DNA of 64,000 nucleotides, taken from assembly GCF_015354445.1 (NCBI RefSeq), contig NZ_JADKYT010000001.1:434001-498000 (forward strand). The letters are read 5' to 3'. The notes under the pieces are model-generated. The model did no database searches, was not told the origin of the DNA, and was given only the letters and a program-made list of their open reading frames with translations. The translations under genes were made by a program, and so were the position numbers. The number at the start of each line of letters is the position of its first letter. Within the stretch, counting starts at the first letter, position 1. This DNA is from Methylophilus sp. QUAN (GTDB lineage: Bacteria > Pseudomonadota > Gammaproteobacteria > Burkholderiales > Methylophilaceae). Positions 2,132 through 44,800 of this stretch are shown here, piece after piece.

Positions 2132-3226
2132 TTAGCGTCGCTCGACGTAGTAAAGCATGCCAAGTCCAGCCGCTAAAAAGAGTAGCGTCGGACTGATGGC
2201 GCTGACCAGTGGAGACCAGTCGTTGAGTACGCCCAGATGCACAAACACGCGGTTCATGATCTGGTAGACCACGCCCAGGAAAATCCCGGCAAAGATTTTG
2301 GCACTGATGCCCCCTGCACGTTGTTGTAAAAAGCCAAACGGCAGTGCCAGCATCACCATCACCAGGCAGGCCAATGGATAGACCAGTTTGGACCACAGCG
2401 CGACCTGGTAACGGGTGCTTCTCTGGCCATTCTGGTGCAGATACTGGATAAAGCTGTACAGATTCCAGGCGGACATTTTTTCCGGCAACACCAGCAGTAC
2501 ATTGAGTAGCTCTGGCCGGATTAGCGACTCCCATTTGGTCTGCTTGAAGAATTGCGAGGTGACGGAGTTGTTCTGCGCTGATTTGCTGGTGTGCATTTTG
2601 GTTTGTGTCACATTGGACAATATCCAGTGGTCATCTTCAAAATAACCTTTGTCGGCATGGCTGATATTGCGCAAGCGGAATTGTGCGTCAAAATCATAAA
2701 TACGAATATCCACCAGGCTGCTATCCGGCATGACGGTAGCGACATTGACAAAACTACTGCCATCCTTGATCCACAAGCCTGACTGGAAGTCCTGTGCGAC
2801 CACTGAGTCTGTGGCCTGGATGCGGATGCGTTGCGCCATTTTTTCACTGATAGGCGCAATGATTTCACCGATCAAAAACGTCACCAGTGCGAATACCAAA
2901 CCAATACTTAACAGCATTTTTGCGATGGTTTGCAGTGAAATGCCGCTGGTGCGCATCACAATCAACTCAGAGCTTGAGGCCATGGCGCCCAAGGTGTAAA
3001 CAATACCTAAGAGTACAGCCACGGGCGCAACTTCATAAATGTGTCCGGGAATACTCAGGCCAACATAAATCAGCATGCTGTTGATGCCGTAGTGTCCGCG
3101 TCCCAGGCTGTCCAGCTCTTGCAGCAGGTCAAAGAAAGAAAACATGGCGAGCAAGCCCAGCAACACCAGCATGATGTTGAAGCTGATTTCTTTCCAGAAA
3201 TAGCGGTTGAGGATAGTCAGCGTCAT
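2132..3226 (-). CDS. lptG: LPS export ABC transporter permease LptG
   Basis: This is one of the two inner-membrane permeases of the Lpt machine (LptB2FG), which extracts lipopolysaccharide from the inner membrane and passes it to the LptC-A-D bridge. The 364-residue protein has the LptF/LptG layout: helices near residues 12-32, 60-80 and 98-118, a periplasmic beta-jellyroll of about 150 residues, and three more helices after residue 270. The opening NRYFWKEISFNIMLVLLGLLA and the late GVVYQIMNRVFVHLGVLNDWSP are typical of LptG. Its start overlaps the end of lptF by 4 bp, so the two are translationally coupled. The ATPase LptB is not in this window. Confidence 0.93.
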   Translation of the reverse strand: MTLTILNRYFWKEISFNIMLVLLGLLAMFSFFDLLQELDSLGRGHYGINSMLIYVGLSIPGHIYEVAPVAVLLGIVYTLGAMASSSELIVMRTSGISLQTIAKMLLSIGLVFALVTFLIGEIIAPISEKMAQRIRIQATDSVVAQDFQSGLWIKDGSSFVNVATVMPDSSLVDIRIYDFDAQFRLRNISHADKGYFEDDHWILSNVTQTKMHTSKSAQNNSVTSQFFKQTKWESLIRPELLNVLLVLPEKMSAWNLYSFIQYLHQNGQRSTRYQVALWSKLVYPLACLVMVMLALPFGFLQQRAGGISAKIFAGIFLGVVYQIMNRVFVHLGVLNDWSPLVSAISPTLLFLAAGLGMLYYVERR

Positions 3227-4332
3227 GTTTTTACACGCTTTGCCCGGCGTTTAAACCAGTCAGGAATGAGTGGTTTGAGATGCTTGCGGCGGTAGTATAG
3301 ATACCAGCCAAGCAATGCGAAGCTAAAGTGCACAGGCCACAATCCGATCAGGACGGAGATTTTCCCCTGGGTGATCCAAGCTTGGAAGATGCTCAACATA
3401 TTGTTGTAGATGATGAATATCAGGATGGCAAACATGATATTCAGTGAGCGTCCGGCGCGTGGGTCGACAAAACTCAGTGGAATGGCAAGCAATACCATAA
3501 TGATGGTCGAAATGGGCATCGCCAGCCGCCAGTGCAGTTCTGCATGGTCAGCCGCGGTTGCGCCGCTAATCAGCGATTGGGTGGACCTGGTTTGCGCTGT
3601 GCTGGATGACGGTGCGGTTTCCTTGGTTTCTACACGGATGTCGTAGCGCTCGAATTCGGTGGTCATTACCTCTAGCGTATTGGGCGTGATTTCATAACGT
3701 CTGCCGTGCTCCATACGCAAAAAATTATCCCCATTGGGGGCTTTATAGCGACTGCCACTATTGGCCGTGATAATGCCGGTCTTGCCATTTTGCTTGGATT
3801 GCACAAAGATGTTTTTGACCTCATAGCCCAGTTTATCGAAGCTCTCGATAAAATAGATGCGCTCGCCATTGTTGGACTCTTTGAAGCTGCCTGGACTGAT
3901 CGAAGATAACTCGTCCCGCTTTTTGAGCTGTGCACGATAACTGTCTGCTTTATCGTTGGCCCAGGGGACAATCCCCAAGCTGAACACGCTGATGATCAGT
4001 ACCAGAGGGGCAATAAAACGCAAAATTGGTAGTACCCATTGGCGCAAACTCAGCCCTGCGTTCATCCAGATGACCATTTCAGAGTCACGGTGCCAGCGGG
4101 TCAGGGTCAGCAGTGCGGCCAGGAAAATGGCAAGGGACAGCATCATGGGCATGAACTGGACCAGACTGAAGGTCAGGATAGTGCCGATGGCGTCGTTAGG
4201 GAGAATCCCTCTGGAAACTTGGCGCACGATGTTACCGGCGCGTTGCGCCACGACAATACCCAGGATAATCAGGAAAATGGCAGACGCTGAGGACATCAGC
4301 TCTGCAGACAATGCACGTTTGAATATTTTCAA
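3223..4332 (-). CDS. lptF: LPS export ABC transporter permease LptF
   Basis: The 369-residue partner of LptG begins MKIFKRALSAELMSSASAIFLI, a standard LptF start. It has three N-terminal helices, a periplasmic domain (about residues 130-265) and three C-terminal helices, including the family segment IPLSFVDPRAGRSLN. The reading frame begins with a TTG codon at position 4332 and no strong ribosome-binding site is seen. It is the first gene of an lptF-lptG operon, divergent from pepA as in many beta- and gamma-proteobacteria. Confidence 0.93.
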   Translation of the reverse strand: MKIFKRALSAELMSSASAIFLIILGIVVAQRAGNIVRQVSRGILPNDAIGTILTFSLVQFMPMMLSLAIFLAALLTLTRWHRDSEMVIWMNAGLSLRQWVLPILRFIAPLVLIISVFSLGIVPWANDKADSYRAQLKKRDELSSISPGSFKESNNGERIYFIESFDKLGYEVKNIFVQSKQNGKTGIITANSGSRYKAPNGDNFLRMEHGRRYEITPNTLEVMTTEFERYDIRVETKETAPSSSTAQTRSTQSLISGATAADHAELHWRLAMPISTIIMVLLAIPLSFVDPRAGRSLNIMFAILIFIIYNNMLSIFQAWITQGKISVLIGLWPVHFSFALLGWYLYYRRKHLKPLIPDWFKRRAKRVKT

Positions 4333-41889: not shown

Positions 41890-42954
41890 ATGAGTCAATA
41901 TTGGAGTAAGCTGGTACACAGCCTGACCCCTTATGTGCCGGGTGAGCAGCCGAAGCTGCAAAACCTGGTCAAGCTGAATACCAATGAGAACCCTTATGGG
42001 CCTAGCCCGAAAGTGATTGCCGCGTTGCAGGCAGAAGCAGCTGACAGCTTGCGTTTGTACCCGGATCCGGACTCCAGCCGCCTGAAAGCAGCAATTGCCG
42101 AATATCATGGTTTGCAAACCAATCAAGTGTTTGTCGGTAATGGCTCGGACGAAGTGCTGGCACATGTTTTTCAGGCCTTGCTCAAGCACGATCAGCCACT
42201 GCTTTACCCAGATATTACTTATAGTTTTTACCCGGTTTATTGCGGTCTTTACGGCATTGCGTTTGAAACGGTGCCATTGAACGCGCAATTTGAGATTGCG
42301 ATTGATGATTATTTGCGTCCCAATGGCGGTATTATTTTCCCGAATCCTAATGCGCCGACAGGCATTCCGGTGGCGTTGAGTGAAATAGAGCGTTTATTAA
42401 AAGCCAACACGCAATCCGTCGTGGTGATTGATGAAGCCTATGTTGACTTCGGTACGGAGTCGGCAGTGTCGTTGGTCAATCAATATCCCAATGTGCTGGT
42501 CACGCATACTTATTCAAAATCGCGTTCGTTGGCCGGTTTGCGCGTGGGCTATGCTGTCGGTGATGCAGCGTTGATTGAAGCCCTGATTCGTGTGAAAGAC
42601 AGTTTTAACTCTTACCCGATTGACCGCTTTGCAGAAGCAGGCGCCATAGCCGCCCTACAAGACGAAGCCTATTTTCAGCAAACCCGTCAGCAAGTGATTG
42701 CATCGCGTGATCAGTTGGTACTGGATTTGCAAGGTCTGGGCTTTGAAGTGCTGCCCTCTGGCGCCAACTTTATTTTTGCGCGCCATCCGAAATATGCGGG
42801 CGAGCAATTGGCCGCCAGTTTACGTGCACAGGCGGTGATTGTGCGTCACTTCAAAAAACCGGCGCGTATTGCCGACTTTTTGCGCATTACGATAGGCAAT
42901 CCTGCTCAAAATCAGGCCTTGATGCAGGCATTGCGTACCTTTCTGTCGGCTTGA
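41890..42954 (+). CDS. hisC: Histidinol-phosphate aminotransferase
   Basis: HisC is a PLP enzyme of fold type I. The 354-residue protein has [12 protein letters not shown], the PLP-lysine in [18 protein letters not shown] and VIDEAYVDF. It is the last gene of the first his block (hisG-D-C). The following 217 bp contain the promoter of the hexulose-phosphate synthase gene and no obvious terminator. Confidence 0.95.
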
Positions 42955-43171
42955 TGTCGCTAAAATCAAAGTATTTGCCGTAATTTGCCCGCTAATGTGC
43001 TGCAAATGATTACATTGTGGCGTAAAAAAAATCGTCGCAATATTGTCATTTTTTTGAAAATGCGGTTATGATGCACGCTATTGTACATAATGTGCAGTGA
43101 GGGTTGCGTTTGCATAATTGCTGCGCATTGATTCATTGGATTTAAAATAGAGCAAACTCGGAGGAAGAAAA
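42955..43171 (+). promoter_or_regulatory. hps promoter and leader region
   Basis: TTGTCA (43043-43048), an 18-bp spacer and TATGAT (43067-43072) match the sigma-70 consensus at 5 of 6 positions each. The predicted start is near 43079, leaving a leader of about 90 nt. A strong GGAGGA ribosome-binding site lies at 43160-43165, just before the ATG. No terminator or other gene is seen in the 217 bp. Confidence 0.65.
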
Positions 43172-44050
43172 ATGGCACAAACCCAGATGGCATTGGACTC
43201 ATTAGATTTCGACGCAACGATCGCCTTGGCAGCTAAAGTAGCGCCATACGTTGATATTTTGGAAATCGGTACACCTTGCATCAAGCATAACGGTATCGAA
43301 TTGTTGAAAGCATTGCGTTCAAAATTCCCTAACAACAAGATTCTGGTTGACCTGAAAACCATGGATGCTGGCTTCTACGAAGCTGAGCCATTCTACAAAG
43401 CAGGTGCTGATATTTGTACCGTTTTGGGTACTGCAGATATCGGTACGATCAAAGGCGTGATCGACGCTGCCAACAAGTATGGCAAAGAAGCGCAAATCGA
43501 CCTGATCAACGTTAAAGACAAAAAAGCCCGTACGCTGGAAGTGGTTAAACTGGGTGCACACATTATTGGTGTACACACTGGTTTGGACCAACAAGCGGCT
43601 GGTCAAACTCCATTTGCTGACCTGGGTCTGGTATCCGGTCTGAAAACAGGCGCTAAAGTGTCTGTGGCTGGTGGCGTTAAAGCTGCAACAACTAAACAAG
43701 TAGTGGACGCTGGTGCTGATATCGTTGTAGCTGGTGCTGCAATCTACGGTGCTGCTGATCCTGCTGCTGCTGCAACTGAAATCACTAAAATTGCTCACGG
43801 TGCTGGCACTGCGACTAAAGGTGGTAACAAATTGCTGCCATGGATCATTGCTGCTGTTGCTGCAGTATTGGTATTCTCCCTGTTGGGCAAAAAATCTGAA
43901 GAAGCTGCGCCTGCCGCTGAAGCACCAGCTGCTGAAGAAGTTGCTCCAGCCGACGCAGCACCTGCTGCTGAAGCGCCAGCTGCCGAAGAGGCTGCTCCAG
44001 CTGAAGCTGCACCTGCAGAAGCTGCACCAGCAACTGAAGAAGCTAAATAA
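43172..44050 (+). CDS. hps: 3-hexulose-6-phosphate synthase with a C-terminal membrane anchor and Ala/Pro/Glu tail
   Basis: Hps condenses formaldehyde with ribulose 5-phosphate, the fixation step of the ribulose monophosphate pathway. Residues 1-209 are a complete Hps/orotidine-decarboxylase barrel with Glu31 (LEIGTP), the Asp60-Lys62-Asp65 set (LVDLKTMDAG) and His135 (GVHTGLDQQ). Family enzymes normally end there. This one continues: a short linker (about 210-220), one hydrophobic helix at 221-239 (LLPWIIAAVAAVLVFSLLG), then GKKSEE and a tail of about 48 residues made of Ala, Pro and Glu repeats (APAAE units) to residue 292. This predicts a tail-anchored, inner-membrane Hps, or a membrane-tethered isoform. 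Codon choice (GCT, GGT, AAA) differs from the neighbours and suggests high expression. It has its own promoter and terminator inside the his cluster. Confidence 0.93.
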   Translation: MAQTQMALDSLDFDATIALAAKVAPYVDILEIGTPCIKHNGIELLKALRSKFPNNKILVDLKTMDAGFYEAEPFYKAGADICTVLGTADIGTIKGVIDAANKYGKEAQIDLINVKDKKARTLEVVKLGAHIIGVHTGLDQQAAGQTPFADLGLVSGLKTGAKVSVAGGVKAATTKQVVDAGADIVVAGAAIYGAADPAAAATEITKIAHGAGTATKGGNKLLPWIIAAVAAVLVFSLLGKKSEEAAPAAEAPAAEEVAPADAAPAAEAPAAEEAAPAEAAPAEAAPATEEAK

Positions 44051-44084: not shown

Positions 44085-44120
44085 AAAAAAAGCAGCCCAT
44101 GCGGGCTGCTTTTTTGTTTT
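44085..44120 (+). terminator. Strong terminator of hps
   Basis: AGCAGCCC and GGGCTGCT form an 8-bp stem with an ATGC loop, extended by A7 on one side and T-tract on the other. It separates hps from hisB. Confidence 0.92.
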
Positions 44121-44209: not shown

Positions 44210-44800
44210 ATGTCACGTCAAGCTGAAGTCACGCGTAATACGCTAGAAACACAAATTACTGTCTCGATTAACCTCGATGGCACCGGTCAATCCGAGTTGC
44301 ACAGTGGTTTGGGCTTTTTGGACCATATGCTGGATCAAGTTGCCCGTCATGGTATGGTTGATTTGAAAGTGCACGCCAAAGGTGATTTGCATATTGATGG
44401 CCACCACACGGTAGAAGATATCGGCATTACGCTGGGCCAGGCCTTTGCCAAAGCGCTGGGCGATAAAAAAGGCTTGACCCGCTATGGCCACAGCTATGTG
44501 CCACTGGATGAGGCTTTGAGCCGTGTCGCACTAGACTTGTCTGGCCGTCCAGGGCTGGCGTTTGATTGCACCTTTACGCGTGCCATGATCGGTGAGTTTG
44601 ATGTCGATCTGTTCCATGAATTTTTCCAGGGCTTTGTCAATCATGCCCTGGTGACGCTGCATATCGATAACCTCAAAGGTCATAATGCCCATCACCAGGC
44701 TGAGACCATATTCAAAGCTTTTGGTCGTGCGCTGCGTATGGCCGCGACCCCTGATCCACGTATGGCTGGATTAATGCCATCAACCAAGGGTGCGTTATAA
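44210..44800 (+). CDS. hisB: Imidazoleglycerol-phosphate dehydratase
   Basis: The 196-residue protein is the single-function dehydratase (no histidinol-phosphatase domain). Metal-binding motifs [25 protein letters not shown] and HNAHHQAE are all present. It starts the second his block (hisB-H-A-F-I-E). Because hps ends in a terminator, this block needs its own promoter in the 159-bp gap; TGTAAAAT at 44156-44163 may be the -10 region. Confidence 0.95.

Follow-up and report, generated by a model that had tools for sequence, protein, structure and literature searches.

The window, as the whole stretch of 64,000 nucleotides that was analysed is called here, carries in a his cluster a gene for hexulose-phosphate synthase (Hps) which, read in a single frame without an internal stop, continues beyond its catalytic barrel. 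The gene, its parts and its surroundings are the following (TM, transmembrane):

43172..44050 (+): hps, 292 aa, his-linked, TM form; open reading frame with ATG start, stop codon included
43172..43792 (+): Hps (beta/alpha) barrel, residues 1-207; TIGR03128 at residues 5-207, aligned with 3ajx and KGPDC
43793..43831 (+): Gly/Lys linker, residues 208-220; dN/dS 0.113, pLDDT <50 at residues 213-221
43832..43888 (+): predicted TM helix, residues 221-239; Kyte-Doolittle (KD) mean 2.47, pN 0.0000, model helix 222-238
43889..44047 (+): acidic Ala/Pro/Glu tail, residues 240-292, predicted to be periplasmic and disordered from composition, model and dN/dS
44086..44115 (+): terminator-like hairpin of 13 pairs 3' of hps; 3 such sites in the stretch versus 1.7 expected
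43043..43072 (+): weak sigma-70-like site 5' of hps; 2 found versus 1.7 expected
41890..42954 (+): hisC-like gene (histidinol-phosphate aminotransferase), upstream neighbour, named from sequence without family scan
44210..44800 (+): hisB-like gene (imidazoleglycerol-phosphate dehydratase), downstream neighbour, named from sequence without family scan

The window barrel (ENC 36.7) and the tal-linked hps (35.2) show a stronger codon bias than the seven his genes (41.6-52.6), and because of this bias and of the hairpin after it, a type of site about as frequent in the stretch as by chance, the window hps would probably be an independent, strongly expressed unit.

The enzyme part is complete, as the sequence-only reading had held, with a score of 248.7 bits against the TIGR03128 (NCBIfam) cut-off of 200 over residues 5-207 and a match to Pfam OMPdecase over residues 5-204. 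The family of bifunctional Hps-Hpi proteins, NF041755, stays below its cut-off (299.1 versus 500 bits), its match stopping at residue 215, and a further domain within the tail is rejected, as no other NCBIfam or Pfam family exceeds its cut-off in residues 208-292. Residues D9, E31, D60, K62, D65 and H135 align with D11, E33, D62, K64, D67 and H136 of KGPDC, which we take to hold the catalytic roles; mutants of KGPDC K64 and H136 appear in PDB titles. Since these residues are, among the matches listed, invariant in 120 of 120 distinct extended and 59 of 59 distinct RuMP-linked proteins, it may be added that the window barrel is presumably active. Barrel, catalytic residues and fold are shared with PDB entries 3ajx (E 1e-49, 46% identity in the structural alignment) and 3f4w (40% identity), whose chains of 207 and 211 residues respectively end with the barrel, whereas the window Hps has an additional 85 residues with a predicted membrane helix.

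A hydrophobic helix had been proposed to follow the barrel at residues 221-239, and the most hydrophobic 19-mer of the protein, LLPWIIAAVAAVLVFSLLG, lies exactly there; its KD mean compares with maxima of 1.52 in the barrel, 0.85-1.83 in the seven His enzymes of the window and 2.53 in the membrane protein AmtB, and was not reached in any of 10,000 shuffles of the part after the barrel (residues 208-292). The tail, which opens directly after the helix with KKSEEAAPAAEAP and runs to residue 292, has the composition ascribed to it (87% Ala, Pro and Glu), but comprises 53 rather than about 48 residues. The 15 residues before the helix contain three Lys/Arg and no acid, while after it come 3 basic and 13 acidic residues, with two Lys directly adjoining the helix. 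An AlphaFold2 model built on 22 aligned sequences gives a barrel with 158 residues at a pLDDT of at least 90, a separate helix and a disordered tail at 30-36, the modelled barrel matching 3f4w and 3ajx; the model confidence is low for both helix types found in the family, about 60 for the TM helix and about 50 for the amphipathic helix treated below.

Among the matches listed, the helix starts at residues 220-223 in 70 of 70 TM-form proteins with KD values of 1.67-2.66, the weakest of which lie inside the range of barrel maxima (up to 1.87), and all 70 contain the motif [LTS]P[WY] and end in 29-111 tail residues of net acidic charge. Lys/Arg is found within 15 residues before the helix in 68 of the 70, a charge distribution that, together with the acidic tails, would fit an N-in/C-out topology. 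A frameshift or an assembly error joining two genes, the event that might have undone the sequence-only reading, is rejected, as the same architecture recurs in these 70 distinct his-linked genes. Export of the barrel itself is rejected by reasoning, as no N-terminal signal is seen and ribulose 5-phosphate is cytoplasmic.

The tail appears spacer-like rather than a docking motif because it changes freely (dN/dS 0.125) and holds only 0-1 prolines in genus g7. Some of the longer TM-form tails, those of L029, L047, L048, L049, L227 and L229, share a GAAK(D/E)ATG-like end, for example TTDGLVGAAKDATGTAK. Stretches resembling the tail occur in a small apparent lipoprotein made nearly entirely of A/P/E repeats (L005, 1459-1845, minus strand; E 0.82) and after the signal-like start of AmtB in L003 (E 4.8e-4), a resemblance that is a low-complexity likeness only. 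A 36-residue query, run against 8 genomes to trace where the TM module came from, found no source gene; it matched his-linked Hps in 6 of the 8 and nothing in G055, and gave two further matches near E 1 (in G110 and at a second place in G000).

The extension belongs to a locus. Two hps loci have been published for Methylophilaceae (PMC4109929); the first belongs to the his cluster, and the second is found together with HPI and transaldolase. The second gene without a tail, for which a check had been proposed, is present in the genome of the window in the arrangement tal-hps-hpi (L002); it has the same catalytic residues and a barrel 81% identical to that of the window copy, but its product stops at residue 210 and belongs to the RuMP operon, whereas the window copy is extended and lies in the his cluster. 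Hps was found in 177 of 187 family genomes by the family search. The locus counts combine the places among the matches listed with loci from 36 genomes, which partly overlap, and rest on hps and its neighbours as read, with hisC and hisB as neighbour markers of the his-linked class; the form of each Hps was first assigned from its length, an assignment that was then compared with hydrophobicity and motif. Distinct complete genes were counted, copies identical both in protein and in the 60 bases downstream being taken as one, and genes at contig ends or broken were left out (L044, L109, L231, L278, L280-L283 and L290-L293). Among the matches listed, all 120 hps genes beside hisC/hisB encode the extension, 70 in the TM and 50 in an amphipathic form, and none of the 61 beside tal/hpi does.

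Amphipathic-form genes at neither type of locus are L116 (G177), L117 (G051) and L287 (G052), and another outside the his cluster (L155/L284, G036) adjoins a formate dehydrogenase-like gene, named by eye. Three further his-linked genes of the amphipathic form (L136, L164 and L176) were counted under the scan of named genomes. Two draft genomes, L043 (G154) and L235 (G101), show an extended hps with tal upstream and hisB downstream, which was counted as his-linked; this arrangement may have arisen by recombination of one locus with the other or by misassembly via the barrel that both have in common. In the small-genome genera g2 and g15, which judging by size are probably marine lineages of the OM43 type, no extended copy was found in the 6 genomes read, each of which has one tailless RuMP-linked Hps.

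The amphipathic form, found in his-linked genes of other genera, consists of a Gly linker and a short C-terminal amphipathic helix such as GGLFGWLKKLFS, is sited at the same place as the TM helix and has no periplasmic part. The motif GG[LVF][FL][GC][WF][LIVC]K.L[FL] is present in 56 of the 57 amphipathic-form proteins among the matches listed, the other ending in GGFCCWLKKLFS. The C-terminal helix of FtsA is a membrane-targeting helix in the inner leaflet, and the hydrophobic moments of the Hps tails (muH 0.60-0.68) fall within the range measured for the C-termini of FtsA in three genomes of the family (0.59-0.73), although the Hps tail is shorter, more hydrophobic and unrelated in sequence. 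Composition-preserving shuffles reached the amphipathic moments in 32-84 of 2000 cases, so that these are only moderately unusual. MinD as a second comparator was dropped, as it exceeded the family cut-off in 0 of 3 genomes.

Substitution patterns set both helices apart from linker and tail. In the window genus (13 sequences, 78 pairwise comparisons, the pairs not being independent), with synonymous differences of 0.32-0.49 per site in each Hps segment, the TM helix has not a single amino-acid change over the 78 pairs at a synonymous divergence of 0.40, while dN/dS is 0.010 for the barrel, 0.113 for the linker, 0.018 for residues 240-248 and 0.125 for residues 249-292. For the amphipathic form (364 equal-length pairs with at least 90% barrel identity, drawn from all 55 distinct coding sequences), dN/dS is 0.065 for the last ten codons, 0.242 for the linker and 0.052 for the barrel. 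Both helices are thus held by selection, and linker and tail look like spacers.

The barrels themselves do not follow this partition. In a barrel tree with 104 members, those with the TM form, with no extension and with the amphipathic form are intermixed, with 9, 15 and 17 changes respectively; the numbers required by well-supported branches are 4, 10 and 10. His- and tal-linked barrels are 81.5-96.1% identical in the 12 genomes compared. The his-linked barrel of G034 comes from a divergent lineage, matching that of the window at 63.4% identity and a tal-linked copy of the same genome at 93.2%, with the amphipathic tail kept. The barrels have been homogenised or exchanged between the loci, the extension remaining with its locus, which would follow from gene conversion or from repeated rounds of duplication. 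A natural tail switch is seen in the tandem his-linked hps genes of G046 (L036; TM form at 2405-3301 and amphipathic form at 1510-2181, both on the minus strand), which are identical over the first 627 bases compared except at 2 positions and then diverge completely, their upstream DNA being unlike apart from the start region. The RuMP locus holds a pair of adjacent tailless hps genes, one member belonging to a divergent lineage, in L099 (G034), L098 (G051), L101 (G177), L276 (G033), L279 (G035) and L274 (G052).

In a scan of named genomes, of which the best 80 relatives were kept, 8 loci (9 genes) carry the extension, all from records named Methylophilaceae, Methylophilales, Methylobacillus or Methylovorus except L129, a record named only Pseudomonadota; its Hps and the family gene that served as query are 100% identical. 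Three further family loci among these 80 are tailless, and the remaining 69 loci, outside Methylophilaceae and mostly from Methylococcales, show no extension of the window kind: 58 encode tailless Hps (211-215 aa), 10 encode Hps-Hpi fusions (389 aa) and one is cut by a contig end. The fusions of Methylococcales likewise combine a barrel with a C-terminal extension, but there the extension is an isomerase domain. Hps activity in Methylococcus capsulatus was reportedly particulate, the enzyme being membrane-associated. In the openly licensed papers searched, in which no mention of an Hps extension or membrane anchor was found, the enzyme fold and the two hps loci are known, and the extension with its spatial role has apparently gone unremarked.

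What the extension does can be approached from several sides. The sequence-only reading had brought the anchored enzyme close to the periplasmic methanol dehydrogenase, and this special tie finds no support: MxaI was found in 44 of 187 family genomes, extended Hps occurs in near-complete genomes outside these 44 (G042 and G158 with the TM form, G108 and G110 with the amphipathic form), and the amphipathic form has nothing in the periplasm, so that a link with Mxa-type methanol dehydrogenase is rejected. A periplasmic A/P/E tail acting as the functional element, one that binds methanol dehydrogenase or the envelope and so tethers the enzyme to its formaldehyde source, is improbable; the predicted N-in/C-out topology and the A/P/E stretches of the apparent lipoprotein and the AmtB start, a likeness only, would agree with such a role, but the tail is poorly conserved, it is scarce in prolines in g7, it is absent from the 50 amphipathic-form his-linked genes among the matches listed, and MxaI does not track the anchor. 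Somewhat less remote, though still unlikely, is a protein-docking helix, with Hpi, a dehydrogenase or a scaffold as partner and membrane contact as an incidental property, as short amphipathic C-terminal helices can dock proteins and the shuffle test of the amphipathic moments was only moderate; yet one and the same place is occupied by either a 19-residue hydrophobic or an unrelated short amphipathic helix, and what both have in common is membrane contact.

Two other explanations deserve very little credence. A Gly linker followed by a C-terminal amphipathic helix resembles the encapsulation peptides of bacterial microcompartments, and the amphipathic tail could on this ground direct Hps into a shell; the TM form, however, would not fit, and cargo of BMC shells is rejected, as the shell family PF00936 was found in 0 of 10 family genomes, including the window's own, in a search whose control was positive in 2 of 14 known genomes. 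That the extension is a functionless artefact or neutral by-product of a fusion would suit a low-complexity, variable tail confined to one family among the matches listed, but is hard to reconcile with its presence in each of the 120 his-linked genes listed, with the strong purifying selection on the helix and with two different extensions at one place.

We consider it likely, with a probability of roughly three in four, that the family keeps a soluble Hps and a second Hps, usually encoded in the his cluster, which would be attached to the inner membrane from the cytoplasmic side. The soluble pool would be the one encoded with Hpi and transaldolase. The barrel of the his-cluster enzyme would sit on the cytoplasmic face, held in the window genus by one C-terminal TM helix with the barrel inside and the acidic tail outside, and in other genera by a short amphipathic helix at the C-terminus that lies in the inner leaflet. 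The common property would be membrane contact of the enzyme, because the amphipathic form has nothing outside. Tethering to the membrane, as the sequence-only reading had it, is well supported at the level of sequence by hydrophobicity, by the helix unchanged within the genus and by the amphipathic helix at the same place, with attachment and topology both predicted features. The strict locus rule, the persistence of the extension on exchanged barrels and the invariant catalytic residues speak for the same reading. Methanol and methylamine dehydrogenases make formaldehyde in the periplasm, and a speculative benefit would be that formaldehyde is caught on its entry from there; channelling or contact with methanol dehydrogenase is likewise speculation. 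As formaldehyde diffuses fast across a cell, the advantage of a membrane-held Hps is not obvious. Other points that weigh against this reading are the low model confidence for both helices, the overlap of the weakest TM helices with the barrel maxima, the two Lys adjoining the window helix, the only moderately unusual amphipathic moments, and the lack of an extended copy in the g2 and g15 genomes read. About a more comprehensive picture we are in two minds, leaning slightly towards doubt: formaldehyde fixation may be divided into two spatial pools, with two interchangeable membrane devices placed on barrels matched by gene conversion, an organisation missing in the small-genome lineages.

Hps generally passes for a soluble enzyme. 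If the proposed membrane-held pool is real, the first step of the RuMP cycle would be spatially organised, and a membrane end specific to one copy throughout the family would account for the retention of two very similar hps genes at fixed places. The site of formaldehyde capture relative to the periplasmic dehydrogenases matters for the physiology of methylotrophs as well as for synthetic methylotrophs, and the anchor or the 12-residue tail would provide natural parts for bringing Hps to the membrane in laboratory hosts.
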